From: a bacterium
GTDB lineage: Bacteria; Pseudomonadota; Gammaproteobacteria; Burkholderiales; SG8-41
NCBI GenBank assembly: GCA_027310225.1
Contig: DAIDBG010000211.1
Coordinates: 1 to 33,277 of the forward strand
DNA: 33,277 nt
Direction: 5' to 3'
Made by a program: the position numbers and the translations under genes. The notes beneath the pieces were generated by a model that searched no databases, had not been told where the DNA came from, and saw only the letters and a list, made by a program, of their open reading frames with translations. Position 1 is the first letter of the stretch. Every line of letters starts with the position of its first letter. Shown here in pieces: positions 2,266-33,277 of this stretch.

Positions 2266-4454
<2,189 letters not shown>

Positions 4455-4820: not shown

Positions 4821-4834
4821 TTGATATGGATCAA
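4821..4834. promoter_or_regulatory. FNR/ANR-type box TTGATATGGATCAA
   Basis: Perfect match to TTGAT-N4-ATCAA in the divergent intergenic region, nearer to the DUF2934 gene. Confidence 0.8.
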
Positions 4835-7703: not shown

Positions 7704-8701
7704 AGGGGCCGCCCACGACGGTCCGCACGACCTACCGCGAGGCGCTGCGCGAGGCCCTGCGCGAGGCGCTCAAGCGCGATGAGCGCGTGTTCCTGATGGG
7801 CGAGGACGTGGCCCGCTACGGCGGCAGCTACGCGGTAAGCAAGGGCCTCGCAGCGGAGTTCGGCGAGGAGCGCATCCGCGACACGCCGCTGTCGGAAGCG
7901 GCGTTCGTCGGGGCGGGCATCGGCGCGGCACTGAACGGCATGCTGCCGATCGTGGAAGTGATGACCTGCAACTTCAGCCTGCTCGCGCTCGACCAGATCG
8001 TCAACAACGCCGCCACCCTCCGCCACATGTCGGGCGGGCAGTTCAGCGTCCCGCTGGTGATCCGCATGGCGACCGGGGCGGGCCGGCAGCTCGCGGCGCA
8101 GCACTCGCACAGCTTCGAGGGCTGGTACGCGCACGTGCCCGGCATCCGCATCGTCACGCCCGCGACGCTGGAAGACGCGCGCGGCATGCTGTGGACCGCG
8201 CTGATGGACCCGGACCCGGTCGTGATGTTCGAGAACGCCCTGCTCTACAACCTCGAGGGCGAGCTTGCAGCCGACGCGGGCGCGGTGGACATCGACCGCG
8301 CGGCGGTCCGCCGCTCGGGCGACGCGGTGACGCTCGTCACTTACGGCGGATCGCTCGGCAAGACGCTGCAGGCGGCGGAGCGGCTCGCCGCGGATGGGAT
8401 CGGCGCCGAGGTCATCGACCTGCGCACGCTGCGCCCGCTCGACATGCCCGCGATCCTCGCCTCGCTCGCGAAGACGCGCCGCGCCGTGATCGTGGACGAG
8501 GGCTGGAAGAGCGGCGGCATCGCTGCGGAAATCATGGCGCGGATCATGGAGCAGGCGTTCTACGAGCTCGACGCGCCGATCGCGCGCGTATGCAGCGCGG
8601 AGGTCCCGATCCCTTACCCCAAGCACCTCGAAGACGCGGCGATCCCGCAGGTGGCCGGCATCGTGGAGGCCGCGCGACGCGTGGTAAGCGGTCATGCATG
8701 A
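7700..8701 (+). CDS. 2-oxoacid dehydrogenase E1 beta subunit (pyruvate/acetoin dehydrogenase type)
   Basis: [70 protein letters not shown]; 4-bp overlap with E1 alpha. Confidence 0.94.
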
Positions 8702-9839
8702 GTTCCGCATGCCCGCGCTGGGGGCCGATATGGACGCCGGCACGCTCGTCGAGTGGATGGTGAAGCCGGGCGACGCCGTGAAGCGCGGCCAGGTGGTCGC
8801 CGTCGTGGAAACGCAGAAGGGCGCGGTCGAAGTCGAGATCTGGGAGAGCGGGACGGTGGACCGCATCCTCGTCGAGCCGCACACGAAGGTGCCTGTCGGC
8901 ACGGTGCTTGCCACCGTGCGCACGGCGGGCGAGCCGGCGGCGCCGGTCGCGCCGCAGCCGGCGCCGGCGGCGGCCCCCATCGCCGCGCCAGCGCCCGACG
9001 CGCTCGCTTCGCGTCCCAGGGTCGCCCCCGCGGCGCGCAAGCGCGCCGAGGAGCTTGGCATTGATATCAATACGGTACGGCCCGCCCGGGCAGGCGATGT
9101 GGTCACGCGCGCGGACGTGGAGCGCGCCGCCGCCGCGCCTCCTGCAGCACCCGCCGCAGCGGAAGAAGACTGGCGCGTGCCCATGCGACGGGCGATCGCG
9201 GCGGCCATGTCGCGCTCCAAGCGCGAGATCCCGCACTACTACCTCGCGACCGACATTGACGCCGCCGCCGTCCTCGATTGGCTCGCCGCGGAGAATCTCA
9301 AGCGACCGGTGGCCGAACGTCTCCTTCCCGTGGTGCCCTTCATGAAGGCGGTCGCGCTCGCGTTGAAGGAAGTGCCCGAGCTGAACGGCTTCTGGATCGA
9401 CGGGGCTTTCAGGCCCGCCCCGGCGGTGCACCTGGGAATGGCGATCGCGATGCGCAGCGGCGGGCTCGTCGCGCCGGCCATTCACGACGCGGACGGGAAG
9501 AGCCTCGGCCAGTTGATGGCCGACCTGCGCGACCTGATCACCCGGGTGCGCAGCGGCCGGCTGCGCAGCTCCGAGATGACCGACCCCACCGTAACCCTCA
9601 CCAGCCTCGGGGAGCAGGGCGTGGAGGAAGTCTTCGGGGTGATCTACCCCCCGCAGGTCGCGCTCGTCGGTCTGGGCAAGGTGACGGAGCGCCCGTGGGC
9701 CGCAGGCGGGACCGTGACCGTGCGCAAAGTGCTCACCGCGACGCTCTCCGCCGATCACCGCGCGAGCGACGGGCACCGCGGGGCGCTCTTCCTCGCCGCC
9801 CTCGCGCGGTTGCTGCAGAATCCCGAAAAGCTCAATTGA
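8694..9839 (+). CDS. 2-oxoacid dehydrogenase E2 (lipoyl acyltransferase)
   Basis: Lipoyl domain [43 protein letters not shown]; peripheral-subunit-binding domain [22 protein letters not shown]; catalytic motif DHRASDG. Confidence 0.94.
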
Positions 9840-27081: not shown

Positions 27082-27099
27082 CTTTGACATAAGTCAAAG
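27082..27099 (+). promoter_or_regulatory. FNR/DNR-type palindrome CTTTGACATAAGTCAAAG
   Basis: Perfect 7-bp arms with 4-nt spacer; plus-strand CACAAT at 27121-27126 is a -10 candidate at class II spacing, upstream of the radical SAM/ubiUV operon. Confidence 0.82.
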
Positions 27100-27346: not shown

Positions 27347-29233
27347 ATGACCGTGCGCCTGCTGCTCATCAATCCGAAGTTCCGCGAGAGCTTCTGGAGC
27401 TTCAAGTGGGCGGTCGAAGGGGTCCTCCCCGGCAAGCGCGCCGTGAATCCGCCGCTCGGGCTCGCCACGCTGGCCGCGCTCTGCCCCCCGCACTGGCACG
27501 TCGAGATCGTGGACGAGAACATCGAGCCGGTGCCGCTCAGGCCGCGCGCCGACCTGATCGGCGTGTGCGGGATGGGAGTGCAGTTCGGGCGCCAGAGCGA
27601 GCTCCTCGCCTATTACCGCAACCAGGGCTACCGCACGGTGGCGGGAGGCAGCTACGCCTCGCTCTGCCCCGATCTCTATGCGCAGCTCGCCGACAGCGTG
27701 GTTGCCGGGGAAGCCGAGTACATCTGGCCGCGGTTCTGCGAGGAATTCGAGCGCGGCGCCCCGCGCGCGCTCTACCGCGAAACCGGCACCGTTTCCCTCG
27801 CCGATTCGCCGGTCCCGCGCTTTGACCTGCTCAAGCTGGAGAAGTACACCACGGCGACGCTGCAGTTCTCGCGCGGCTGCCCGTTCCGCTGCGAATTCTG
27901 CGACATCATCGTGATGTTCGGGCGCAAGCCGCGCTGCAAGACGCCGGAACAGGTGGGCCGGGAGCTCGACGCGCTGAGGGCGCGCGGCGTGCGCAACGTC
28001 TTTTTCGTGGACGACAACCTGATCGGGCACCGGGCGCAGGCCGGGCACCTGCTGCGGTTTCTGCGCGCCTACCAGGAGCGGCACGGCTACTGGTTTCATT
28101 TCGGCACCGAGGCTTCCCTCAACCTCGCACAGGACGCGGAACTGCTCGGGCTGTTCCGGGACGCCCGTTTCGAGTGGCTGTTCATCGGCATCGAGTCCCC
28201 GGACGAGGAGACGCTCCGGCAGACGCGCAAGACCCAGAACATCCACGAGAACGTGCTGACCTCGATCCGGCGCATCTACTCGTACGGCATAGACGTGCTC
28301 GCCGGATTCATCATCGGCTTTGACAACGATACGCCCGCCACTTTCGAGCTGCAGCGCCGCTTCATCCGCGACGCCGGGATCCAGGTCGCGATGATCGGGC
28401 TGCTCACGGCGTTGCCCAGGACCCCGCTCTACGAGCGCCTGCAGCGCGAAGGACGCCTCATCGCGCAGGCCGACAGCACCGACAACACCAAGCCGCGCAC
28501 CAATTTCCTGCCCCTGCGCATGAGCTACGAGGACATGGTGCGCGGCTACATGGACCTTTACCGGAGCCTGCTGTCCGACCGCGGGATCGCGGAACGGGTG
28601 CGCAGCAAGATTCGCCACATGGCGGACCCGGTGTACCGCGGAGAGTACTCGGCGCGCGAGCAGATCGGCATCATCGCCCGGCTTCTCACGAAGGGCATCG
28701 CGCGCGGCGGCGGGCGCAGGGTCTTTCACTTCGCGTGCAGCCTGCCGTGGCTCGCGCCGCGCAAGCTGCCGCTCGCGATCGTGGACTGGATCGCGGGGCT
28801 GGCGATGCGCGACTACGTGGACCGCCACTTCGCCGCTCCGCGCGTGCGAGACGCCGCGGTCGCCGGCAAATGGTTCGCCTCGATCGAGCGCGCGATCCGG
28901 CGCTACGTCGAGGACGGCAGGGCGAGCGTGGAGCTGAAACTCCTCGCCGATTCGGTCCCGCGGCTCAAGCTGCGGATCGCCGGCCGGCTCGACCGCGCTT
29001 TCTTCACGCGCTGCGCGAGCCGGCTCGTGCGGCTGCTCGGCTGCACGCGCGCGTCGGTCACGCTGGTGGTGGACGAGCTCGAAGCGCCGCAACTGCGCAA
29101 CCTGCAGCATCTGCTGCGGCGCCTCGCCCGCTACGGCGACCGTGTCTTCATCGAGGTGAGCGAGCGGCTGCGGCACTCGGTCCCGGTGGACTCCTCGGTG
29201 TTCAACCTCATTCTGGAAGCAGACGCCAGGTGA
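27347..29233 (+). CDS. B12-binding-domain radical SAM protein
   Basis: N-terminal MTVRLLLINPKF...NPPLGLATLAALCPPHWHVEIVDENIEPV; cluster motif FSRGCPFRCEFCDIIVMFGRKPR (CX3CX2C); GIESPDEETLRQTRKTQN. ATG 27347 preferred to track start 27224. Confidence 0.92.
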   Translation: MTVRLLLINPKFRESFWSFKWAVEGVLPGKRAVNPPLGLATLAALCPPHWHVEIVDENIEPVPLRPRADLIGVCGMGVQFGRQSELLAYYRNQGYRTVAGGSYASLCPDLYAQLADSVVAGEAEYIWPRFCEEFERGAPRALYRETGTVSLADSPVPRFDLLKLEKYTTATLQFSRGCPFRCEFCDIIVMFGRKPRCKTPEQVGRELDALRARGVRNVFFVDDNLIGHRAQAGHLLRFLRAYQERHGYWFHFGTEASLNLAQDAELLGLFRDARFEWLFIGIESPDEETLRQTRKTQNIHENVLTSIRRIYSYGIDVLAGFIIGFDNDTPATFELQRRFIRDAGIQVAMIGLLTALPRTPLYERLQREGRLIAQADSTDNTKPRTNFLPLRMSYEDMVRGYMDLYRSLLSDRGIAERVRSKIRHMADPVYRGEYSAREQIGIIARLLTKGIARGGGRRVFHFACSLPWLAPRKLPLAIVDWIAGLAMRDYVDRHFAAPRVRDAAVAGKWFASIERAIRRYVEDGRASVELKLLADSVPRLKLRIAGRLDRAFFTRCASRLVRLLGCTRASVTLVVDELEAPQLRNLQHLLRRLARYGDRVFIEVSERLRHSVPVDSSVFNLILEADAR

Positions 29234-29243
29234 CGGCGCTGTC

Positions 29244-30257
29244 ATGGGCAAAAGCGCGCGCCTCGAGCTGGTGTGCCCGGCGGGCAACCTCCCCTCGCTG
29301 CGGGCGGCCGTGGACCACGGCGCCGACTGCGTCTATATCGGCCTGCGCGACAACACCAACGCCCGCAACTTCGGCGGGCTCAATTTCGATCCCGCCACCG
29401 CGCGCGAGGGCCTCGACTACGCGCACCGCAAGGGCGCGAAGGTGCTGCTCGCGATCAACACCTATCCGCAGCCCGCGACCTGGCAGCGCTGGACCTGCGC
29501 CGTGGACACCGCGGCCGATCTCGGGGTTGACGCCATCATCGTCGCCGATCCGGGGCTCATGCGTTACGCCGCCCGGACGCACCCGCAGCTGCAGCTCCAT
29601 CTCTCGGTGCAGGGCTCGGCGACCAGCTACGAGGCGATCAATTTCTACCACCGGCAGTTCAACGTACGCCGCGCGGTGCTGCCGCGCGTGCTGTCGCTGG
29701 CGCAGGTCGGCGAGGTCGTCCGCAATACGCCGGTCGAGATCGAGGTGTTCGGCTTCGGCAGCCTGTGCGTGATGGTCGAGGGCCGCTGCGCGCTCTCCTC
29801 CTACGTGACCGGAGAGTCCCCCAACATGACCGGCGTATGCTCGCCGGCCGGGGCGGTGCGGTGGGAGCACAGGGCGGACGGGCTCGAGGCGCGGCTGAAC
29901 GGCGTGCTGATCAACCGCTACCGCGACGGTGAGCCCGCCGCCTACCCGACGCTGTGCAAGGGGCGCTTCCGGGCGGGCGAGGACGTTTACTACGCAATCG
30001 AGGAGCCGGCGAGCCTGAACGCGCTCGAGCTGCTGGCGGAACTCGCCCGCATCGGCGTTGCCGCCGTCAAGATCGAAGGCCGCCAGCGCAGCCCCGTCTA
30101 TGTCGCCGCGGTCACGCGCGTATGGCGGCAGGCGCTCGATGCGCTCATGCGGGACACCGGCGGCTGCGCGGTGCAGCCGCAGTGGGCCGCGGAGCTGCGC
30201 CGCATGTCCGAAGGGCGGTGCCACACGCTCGGCGCCTACCACCGGCCCTGGAAATGA
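29244..30257 (+). CDS. ubiU: O2-independent ubiquinone hydroxylation protein UbiU (peptidase U32 family)
   Basis: [48 protein letters not shown]; four candidate cluster-ligand Cys (GSLC, GRC, GVC, YPTLC); followed by UbiV and UbiT homologues. Confidence 0.92.
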
Positions 30258-30279: not shown

Positions 30280-31272
30280 ATGAAGCTCGCGCTGGGACCG
30301 CTGCTCTACTACTGGCCGCGCCGGACGGTCATGCAGTTCTACGAGGAGATCGCCGGCACCTCCGTTGACATCGTGTACCTCGGCGAAGTGGTCTGTTCGC
30401 GCCGCCACGAGTTGCGCCTGCCCGACTGGCTGGACCTCGCGGCGGCGCTGCAGGAGGCGGGCAAGGAGGTGGTGCTGTCAACCCAGGCGCTGACCGAATC
30501 CGAGTCGGACCTCAGGACCTTGCGCCGCATCGCCGGCAACGGGCGCTTCCTGGTGGAGGCGAACGACATGGGAGCGGTGAATCTGCTGTCGGGAACCGCG
30601 CCGTTCGTCGCCGGACCGCATTTGAACGTTTACAACCCGCACACGCTCGGCCTGCTCGCCGGGCTCGGCGCCCGGCGCTGGGTGATGCCGGTCGAAATGC
30701 CGCGCCCCATGCTGGAGGACATGCAGCGCGCGAGACCCGCCGGCGTCGAGACCGAGGTGTTCGCTTTCGGCCGGCTGCCGCTCGCGTTCTCGGCGCGCTG
30801 CTTCACCGCGCGCCGCAACAACCTGCCGAAGGACGACTGCCGCTTCAGCTGCATCGAGCACCCGGACGGACTGCCTCTCGCCACGCTCGAGGGCGAGCCG
30901 TTCCTGGTGCTGAACGGGATCCAGACCCAGTCCTCCCACGTCCACAGCCTGATCGCGGAGCTCGATGCGCTCGCCGGACTCGGCGTGGACGCCGTGCGCA
31001 TCAGTCCGCAATCCCGCCACACGCCGCAAATCATCGCGCTGTTCCGCCAGTGCGCGAGCGGCGCACTCGCCCCCGCCGAAGCCGCGCGCGCGCTCGAGCC
31101 GCTGGCGCCGGGCGCGCTGTGCGACGGCTACTGGCATGGGCGACCGGGCCTGACGAGCATCGTGAAAATGATTGACGATGCTCGACCCCTCACCCCTTCC
31201 CCCTCTCCCGAGGGGAGAGGGGAAATGGGCGGCGGTAAATGGCTCGTCAGCCATTTACCCGAGGCTCAATAG
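30280..31272 (+). CDS. ubiV: O2-independent ubiquinone hydroxylation protein UbiV (peptidase U32 family)
   Basis: [86 protein letters not shown] (Cys ligands). C-terminus carries a repeat-derived tail. Confidence 0.93.
31154..31259. repeat. Three consecutive hairpins at the ubiV 3' end, including a CTCTCCC/GGGAGAG dispersed-repeat motif
   Basis: CGAGCATCGT(31154-31163)/ACGATGCTCG(31175-31184); CCCCTCTCCC(31200-31209)/GGGAGAGGGG(31213-31222); GGTAAATGGCT(31234-31244)/AGCCATTTACC(31249-31259). All perfect. Confidence 0.9.
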
Positions 31273-31294: not shown

Positions 31295-32893
31295 ATGCGC
31301 CTGCGCACGCTCGACGTGACCGACACCGGCCTCGCCAGCGGGCCGCTCAACCAGGCGCTCGACCGCCAGCTGCTCAAACGCGTCGCCACCGGGCAGGCGT
31401 GTGAAACGCTGCGCTTCTACCGCAACACGCCGGCGGTCAGCGTCGGGTGCCATCAGGCGCTGGCGCGCGAGCTGCGGCTCGATTACTGCCGCGCGAGCGG
31501 CATTGATGTCGTTCGACGCGCCAGCGGCGGCGGCGCCCTCTACCTCGACCCCGACCAGCTCGGCTTCAGCCTCGTCGTGCGCCGCACGCCGGGATGGCGC
31601 AACCTCGCTCTCGCCGACGAACTGCAGCACGCAGGTGAGGCTGTCGCCCGGGCGCTGCACTCGCTCGGCATCGCCGCGCGCGCCGTAGCGCCCAACGATG
31701 TCGAAGTGGACGGGCGCAAGATTGCCTCGGTGTTCGTCACTCACGATGAGCCGGCGCGGCTCGTGCACGGCGTCGTGCTGCTCGACGCGGACGTGCGCAC
31801 CATGCTGGAAGCGCTGCGCGTGCCCACGGAGAAGCTTTCCGCGGACGGGCTCGCTTCCGCGCGCGACCGGCTCACCACCCTCACCGCCTGTCTGGGCGGC
31901 CCCCCGGAACTCGGCGCAGTCAAATCGGCGCTCGCGCGCGCCTTCGTCTCCGATCTCGGCGTGCGATCGGGGCGCGGCCGCTGCGCCACGCTGCGCGACA
32001 GCGTGATGCTCGACCAGCTGGAAGCCGAGCGCGGGATCGCTGCGCGCATCGGGTGGGACGGGGACGGCGCCGGGTTTCTCGAGGCGCTGGTGCGGACGCC
32101 CGCGGCAACGCTGCGCGCCCGCGCGCAGTTCAGCGCGGGCGGCGAACGCTTTGCGCGCGTCGAATTCGCGGCCGACGCGCACGTCGCGCCGGCGAGCTAT
32201 TTCACCAGCCTGCAAGACGTCCTCGCCGGGCTTCCGGTTGCGCTGGCGACCGAGGCCGTCGGACATTGGTCGCGGCGTCACGCCGCCCAGACCGTCGGCT
32301 TTCAAGCCGCCGACATCGTGCGGCTGCTCGAACAGCTCGCCGACAAGCAGCATCTGATGCAACGCCATCGCTTCAGCGCGCGTGAAGCCAATGCGCTGAT
32401 GCCGTACTGCGCGAACGGCGTCGGCGGAACCGAGGCGGTGCTGCGCCGCGCGAGCGTCATGCTCGTCCCGTATTGCGCCAAGCCCGTGTGGTGCAAGTGG
32501 CGCCACCTCGACGGCTGCAGCGAGTGCGGCAAATGCGAAGTCGGTGACGCCTACCGGCTGGCGCGCGAGCGCAACATGCAGGTCACCACGATCACCAACT
32601 ACGAGCACCTGGTCGCCACGCTGCGCGCCATGAAGGCGGGCGGCGTCGCCGCGTATGTCGGCATGTGCTGTTCCAACTTCTTCGTCAAGCGCTACCGCGC
32701 TTTCGCGGACGCCGGGATGCCGGCGGTGCTGATGGACATCAGCGGCGCCAACTGCTACGAGCTGAAACAGGAAAGCGCGGCCTACGCCGGCAATTTCCAG
32801 GCTGAAGCCCGGCTCGACCGCGACCTTCTGGCGCAGGTCGCCCGGCTGATGCCCGGGGCCGCCGTGCCACGCGGTCACGACGCCGCGAAGTGA
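31295..32893 (+). CDS. Lipoate-protein ligase A-like domain fused to C-terminal DUF116 domain
   Basis: N-term LRFYRNTPAVSVGCHQALARELRLDYCRASGIDVVRRASGGGALYLDPDQLGFSLV (BPL/LplA fold, RRxSGGGAxY); C-term MLVPYCAKPVWCKWRHLDGCSECGKCEVGDAYRLARERNMQVTTITNYEHL...VGMCCSNFF (DUF116-like). ATG 31295 preferred to track start 31172. Confidence 0.88.
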   Translation: MRLRTLDVTDTGLASGPLNQALDRQLLKRVATGQACETLRFYRNTPAVSVGCHQALARELRLDYCRASGIDVVRRASGGGALYLDPDQLGFSLVVRRTPGWRNLALADELQHAGEAVARALHSLGIAARAVAPNDVEVDGRKIASVFVTHDEPARLVHGVVLLDADVRTMLEALRVPTEKLSADGLASARDRLTTLTACLGGPPELGAVKSALARAFVSDLGVRSGRGRCATLRDSVMLDQLEAERGIAARIGWDGDGAGFLEALVRTPAATLRARAQFSAGGERFARVEFAADAHVAPASYFTSLQDVLAGLPVALATEAVGHWSRRHAAQTVGFQAADIVRLLEQLADKQHLMQRHRFSAREANALMPYCANGVGGTEAVLRRASVMLVPYCAKPVWCKWRHLDGCSECGKCEVGDAYRLARERNMQVTTITNYEHLVATLRAMKAGGVAAYVGMCCSNFFVKRYRAFADAGMPAVLMDISGANCYELKQESAAYAGNFQAEARLDRDLLAQVARLMPGAAVPRGHDAAK

Positions 32894-32899
32894 AAGCCA

Positions 32900-33277
32900 A
32901 TGGACCTGCCGCCGCTTCCCGCCCCGCTGCAAGCCGTGCTGTCACGGCTGCCGCAGTATCCCCCCGCGGCGGCGTTCGCCGTCCTCGTCAACCTGTGGCC
33001 GGGCAATGCCGTGAGCGGCAGGAACCTTCCCGCAGCGCAGGGCAAAGTCGTCTGCATCCGCGTGCGCGATGCCGGGCTGCGGCTGCTGTTCCGCGTGCAC
33101 GAGGAAGGCGTGGCCGCGTGTACCGGCGCACGGCCCGACGTGACCATCACCGCCGATGCCGGCGTATTCGTGGCGCTCGCGCTGCGCCGGGAAGACGCCG
33201 ACACCCTGTTCTTCAACCGGCGCCTCGACATGGAAGGCGACACCGAGCTGGGCCTGCTGATCAGGAATACGCTCGAT
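32900..33277 (+). CDS. ubiT: UbiT-like SCP2 sterol-binding domain protein, truncated by window end
   Basis: MDLPPLPAPLQAVLSRLPQYPPAAAFAVLVNLWPGNAVSGRNLPAAQGKVVCIRVRDAGLRLLFRVHEEGVAACTGARPDVTITADAGVFVALALRREDADTLFFNRRLDMEGDTELGLLIRNTLD; no stop in window. Confidence 0.9.
   Translation, partial: MDLPPLPAPLQAVLSRLPQYPPAAAFAVLVNLWPGNAVSGRNLPAAQGKVVCIRVRDAGLRLLFRVHEEGVAACTGARPDVTITADAGVFVALALRREDADTLFFNRRLDMEGDTELGLLIRNTLD

Follow-up and report, generated by a model that had tools for sequence, protein, structure and literature searches.

The window analysed here, a bacterial DNA stretch of 33,277 nucleotides, carries between ubiV and ubiT a gene for a lipoate ligase-family protein of the sLpl(AB) type fused to a Cys-rich DUF116 domain. 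Our preferred explanation, held tentatively, is that the fusion is an anaerobically expressed, sLpl(AB)-derived lipoate or octanoate ligase for carriers of the LbpA/GcvH type, joined to a redox or Fe-S module. Its identification as an sLpl(AB)-type ligase is supported by a ligase fold extending over both ligase domains, a joint group in phylogenetic trees, the loci of two relatives (G399 and G748) and co-occurrence across genomes; the anaerobic setting follows from ubiUVT, nrdD/nrdG and FNR-like sites. The features of the locus and of the encoded protein are as follows.

27084-27097, no strand assigned: FNR/FixK-like palindrome TTGACATAAGTCAA, a predicted site upstream of the operon
27347-29233, plus strand: B12-binding/radical SAM DUF4070 gene, in a reading frame open from 27224
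29244-30257, plus strand: ubiU (NF047963, E=4e-165)
30280-31272, plus strand: ubiV (NF047965, E=1e-123), start read from the sequence
31295-32893, plus strand: LPL-DUF116 fusion gene, 532 amino acids, no stop inside the frame, full-length homologues exist
31346-31945, plus strand: LplA-B catalytic domain, residues 18-217 (Pfam PF21948, E=2.5e-42; fold match to LplA structures)
31718-31720, plus strand: Lys142, corresponding to the catalytic lysine of LplA, in NDVEVDGRK, from alignment with relatives
31982-32344, plus strand: LplB-like accessory domain, about residues 230-350, from a Foldseek alignment to two-domain LplA over ~360 columns
32444-32761, plus strand: DUF116 domain, residues 384-489 (Pfam PF01976, E=8.6e-9, 35.5 bits)
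32900-33277, plus strand: ubiT (SCP2 domain; PF02036, E=1.3e-15, and synteny), cut by the window end

The original prediction, made from the DNA alone, was of a lipoate ligase-like half fused to a DUF116-like half, and both assignments hold. The lipoate-pocket motif RRASGGGALY and the Cys motif PYCAKPVWCKWRHLDGCSECGKC...GMCC lie in one open frame, as had been described. The window protein scores 145.5 bits against the PF21948 cut-off of 27, its RR-x-[ST]GGG motif (RRASGGG) occupies residues 74-80, and the catalytic Lys142 is present in the alignment. In the LplB-like domain, D294 and P299 are common to all 30 sLpl(AB) sequences. The DUF116 match exceeds the PF01976 gathering score of 25 bits, and this part of the protein contains Cys394, 400, 408, 411, 414, 458, 459 and 487; C408-C411-C414 form a CxxCxxC motif, with five further Cys. 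The two outcomes named beforehand as refuting the prediction, a missing catalytic Lys and a DUF116 assignment that fails in an HMM search, therefore do not apply to this protein. The structure prediction proposed as a check bears out the ligase half. The full-length model (AlphaFold2, 15 homologues) has a mean pLDDT of 85, and its best Foldseek matches are LplA structures, across both ligase domains in the first ~360 residues. Modelled alone, the DUF116 part is predicted with lower confidence (pLDDT 72.5), and a structure search of the PDB with that model returned no significant match and no solved structure like it.

A survey of domain architecture, also proposed with the prediction, finds that about 31 of the 399 order-level genomes encode homologues of the fusion, most of them full-length with 44-53% identity. 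Scanning public genomes adds further full-length fusions with up to 83% identity, nearly all from metagenome-assembled genomes of Betaproteobacteria type. Beyond the order, the fusion occurs in about a dozen gammaproteobacterial genomes and in two more distant Pseudomonadota. An artefact or frameshift as the origin of the fusion is ruled out by the widespread full-length homologues; both the fusion and the ubiUV-X-ubiT arrangement turn up repeatedly across diverse Burkholderiales and Gammaproteobacteria, and thus neither is an artefact. In one genome (G092:C2:327359-328904, locus L064), the gene is read as two frames overlapping by ~5 nt, the result of a natural split or of a frameshift.

Phylogenetic analysis places the ligase halves of the fusions and sLpl(AB) in one group against LplA outgroups, with support of 100/100 (0.967 in another tree), and the fusions emerge from, or beside, sLpl(AB). 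Identity between fusions and sLpl(AB) is at most 38.5%, G399 excepted. As judged from these sequence comparisons, the ligase half is shown to descend from the sLpl(AB) group of sHdr/LbpA sulfur oxidation. Fusion genomes also carry ~355-residue paralogues; wherever the neighbourhood was read, these serve as the ligase gene of lipS1-slpl(AB)-lipT-lipS2 clusters, most of which follow sHdr genes. The LipS1 and LipS2 labels combine NCBIfam best matches of 204 and 195 bits, which are under the curated cut-offs of 230 and 270 bits respectively, with gene order, which agrees with published lip clusters (PMC10332631). Genes for sLpl(AB) are found in 27 of the 31 fusion genomes and in 26 of the 368 others (Fisher 3.7e-23, ignoring kinship). 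At the family level, 10 of 10 fusion families are among about 13 sLpl(AB) families of about 50 in total (hypergeometric 2.8e-8, with approximate family counts); the co-occurrence is partly phylogenetic. LipS1 was found in 35 of the 41 genomes searched; it was not found in the window genome (88% complete), the genome of L032, G351 (66% complete) or the three genomes of family f242 (G879, G1082 and G989).

Two relatives place the fusion directly among lipoylation genes. In G399 (L099) the order is sHdr-lbpA-dsrE-lbpA-lipS1-[fusion]-lipT-lipS2, and the fusion is the only ligase of the lip operon, sitting in the slot of sLpl(AB); the case rests on one 98%-complete assembly, the sole genome of its class in the set. 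In G748 (L100) the fusion lies beside lbpA and a lipS1-lipT-lipS2-slpl(AB) run. The G399 ligase half reaches 56% identity to sLpl(AB) and no more than 38.7% to other fusions. Identity and topology favour a DUF116 fusion that arose twice independently, although a single-origin constraint is not rejected (p-AU 0.13), and in a larger quick tree the constrained tree scored even better.

A third type of LbpA-like carrier, LbpA3 (MxEYRGCELP...ESGKWAGGIPAP...QCMRC), occurs in 16 of the 399 order-level genomes, each of them with sLpl(AB) or LipS1 as well (examples are L059:12443-12889, L064, L155-L158 and L192-L204). In G048 and G092, an orphan gene of this type lies 2-4 kb from the fusion, close to the ubi/fusion cluster. 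LbpA3 was considered as a dedicated substrate of the fusion and rejected, since within sHdr genomes its presence does not follow that of the fusion (p=0.77).

Residue conservation was counted in an alignment of 49 fusions, 30 sLpl(AB) and 13 LplA-type outgroup sequences. The catalytic Lys is present in 44, 30 and 13 of these, respectively. In the remaining five fusions, from about three lineages, position 142 is R (L025, L040 and L074) or T (L075 and L081); some of these lineages have an altered GGG motif as well, and the eight Cys are retained. Each of the eight DUF116 Cys is kept in 46-49 of the 49 fusions, with C458 lost in family f242 (L076, L077 and L080). This agrees with the prediction of a Cys-rich, probably metal- or Fe-S-binding partner; from their pattern, the eight near-invariant Cys are probably ligands of one or two Fe-S clusters. 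The ligase half has a conserved Cys of its own, Cys65, which is shared by 46 of 49 fusions and 30 of 30 sLpl(AB) and is thus a mark of the ligase group rather than of the fusion. Between the window fusion and L031, dN is 0.088 and dS 0.29 overall (dN/dS about 0.30), and dN is 0.064 and dS 0.30 for the DUF116 part, values that fit purifying selection in each half.

The loss of Lys with the Cys intact is the main threat to the ligase explanation, and favours a different role in which the ligase fold is a docking part. The protein would then be an oxygen-sensitive Fe-S enzyme that grips carriers of the LbpA/GcvH type by its ligase fold, with DUF116 exchanging electrons or sulfur with the lipoyl group or a carrier Cys, and with ligation itself left to sLpl(AB) or LipB/LipA. 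Such anaerobic lipoyl electron or sulfur chemistry would be new. In its favour, sLpl(AB) is already present in nearly all fusion genomes and LipB/LipA in the fusion genomes checked (except G399, which is without LipB), and the role fits the proposal that DUF116 is an electron-transfer protein (PMC5898192). However, most members keep the Lys and GGG, and in G399 there is no ligase in the lip operon other than the fusion. We regard this role as unlikely, though it is the strongest of the rivals.

The genes around the fusion point to an anaerobic setting. UbiU and UbiV score above the NCBIfam equivalog cut-offs; 22 nt separate the ubiV stop from the fusion ATG, and ubiT starts 6 nt beyond the fusion stop. 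The DUF4070 gene is likely the first gene of a ubiUV-fusion-ubiT operon, and relatives of its family adjoin or neighbour the ubiU/fusion cluster in L041, L059 and L064. Order-level loci mostly have ubiU-ubiV directly 5' of the fusion and ubiT 3', with ubiV directly upstream in 24 of 36 distinct genomes, or roughly two thirds. In related loci, ubiU often has an MnmL/YtqA-type radical SAM gene on its 5' side, and nrdD, nrdG/nrdG2 and Crp/FNR genes are near the cluster. FNR-like sites precede the first gene of the cluster in 10 of 32 related loci, and the window contains 16 where 2.6 are expected. An anaerobic role had been suggested for the fusion, and this setting is in keeping with it. Hyphomicrobium denitrificans provides an independent hint of a link between sHdr and anaerobic ubiquinone synthesis: its sHdr regulators also affect genes for anaerobic ubiquinone and denitrification (PMC12423496).

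Two further observations concern the window itself. Perfect FNR-like sites are found at 4821, 4880, 22335 and 24495. Within the 3' end of ubiV, at 31201-31260, two palindromes (CCCTCTCCCGAGGGGAGAGGG and GGTAAATGGCTCGTCAGCCATTTACC) lengthen the frame by ~30 codons past the end of relatives' alignments (about residues 291-299), possibly as a REP-like insertion.

Given this position, the fusion could instead be an accessory of O2-independent ubiquinone synthesis, such as an Fe-S electron donor or an assembly factor for UbiU/UbiV. The argument is one of synteny, seen in the roughly two thirds of order-level loci with the fusion between ubiV and ubiT and in about nine gammaproteobacterial genomes where it adjoins ubiUV. 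On the other hand, E. coli and other Proteobacteria have a working UbiUVT that does without the fusion (PMC6747719); G170, G100, G055, G213 and f242 carry the fusion at a distance from ubi genes; and in G399 and G748 it belongs to, or lies beside, the lip/lbpA genes. A direct ubiquinone role is improbable, somewhat more so than docking.

The genome of the window also bears on the sLpl(AB)-type ligase explanation. Adjacent genes on C339 encode canonical LipB and LipA; sLpl(AB) was sought in this genome and not found, and there is no lipS1/lipS2/lipT or lbpA beside the fusion within the window, such neighbours being seen only in G399 and G748. What remains of LbpA is broken: a 24-residue LbpA3-like fragment on C42 (L175, around 1959-2033), and an LbpA2-like frame on C158 (L176, around 2927-3091) that stops after ~62 residues, short of the lipoyl lysine. 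A similar truncated LbpA3 (L177) is seen in the genome of a relative. Even so, the fusion is intact, and f242 likewise has the fusion without LipS1; both facts count against the ligase explanation. LipS1 and two intact LbpA genes are still present in the genome of the nearest relative (L031). The window lineage may have lost the sHdr-LbpA pathway and kept the fusion, or parts may be missing from the draft assembly. If the loss is real, the window fusion needs another carrier, for example GcvH or an E2.

An E2 encoded in the window (8694-9839) was put forward by the original prediction as a substrate, and this part of it lacks support. Pyruvate-dehydrogenase-like genes are absent from the fusion's surroundings in all related loci, LipA/LipB are in the genome, and phylogeny and co-occurrence point to sHdr/LbpA lipoylation. 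The same evidence bears on the broader alternative of an ordinary LplA-like scavenging ligase for E2/GcvH, the window's PDH-like E2 included. The Lys and RR-GGG motifs would suit such an enzyme, as would the window's own E2 lipoyl domain, but the fusion's ligase half groups with sLpl(AB) and not with LplA-type sequences, and dehydrogenase genes are near no relative's fusion. We consider it the least probable of the explanations.

Under the preferred explanation of an sLpl(AB)-derived ligase with an Fe-S module, the fusion and UbiUVT would be co-expressed when oxygen is low. At the Lys142/GGG site, the ligase half would adenylate octanoate or lipoate and then transfer the acyl group to a carrier resembling LbpA or GcvH. 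The Fe-S module might supply or relay electrons to mature or re-reduce the lipoyl carrier, or it might act as a switch, with the ligase turned off once oxygen destroys the clusters.

Each component resembles a known system. Like sLpl(AB) of the sHdr-LbpA pathway (PMC10332631, PMC6067878), which is proven to modify LbpA (PMC10332631), the fusion has the two-domain ligase plan, the Lys, RR-TGGG and Cys65, and one fusion occupies its operon slot; unlike it, the fusion has a C-terminal DUF116, its usual home is a ubiUVT/nrdD anaerobic cluster, and some members have lost the Lys. DUF116 (COG1852, arCOG02078) was predicted in 2015 to be an electron-transfer, metal-binding family, and shares with the fusion a Cys-rich globular domain and a CxxCxxC-type motif; its archaeal members, however, are described as membrane-anchored, and the bacterial fusion described there is to a polyprenyl synthetase, not a ligase (PMC5898192). 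With O2-independent ubiquinone synthesis by UbiUVT (PMC6747719, PMC11707229), the fusion has its locus and FNR-type sites in common. We found nothing on a lipoate ligase or fusion at the ubiTUV locus in the main texts of these UbiTUV papers, nothing on such a fusion in those of the sLpl(AB) papers, and no open-access report on DUF116 and lipoate jointly. The fusion thus appears undescribed in the open-access literature, supplements apart.

The fusion sits inside the oxygen-free ubiquinone cluster of many sulfur-oxidizing Proteobacteria. It suggests a different treatment of lipoylated sulfur carriers when oxygen is absent. It would join three separately studied systems, namely sHdr-LbpA lipoate assembly, the function-unknown DUF116 and anaerobic ubiquinone synthesis, and DUF116 gains a testable biochemical partner. 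If the docking role is the true one, anaerobic lipoyl chemistry would link sulfur oxidation to anaerobic respiration.
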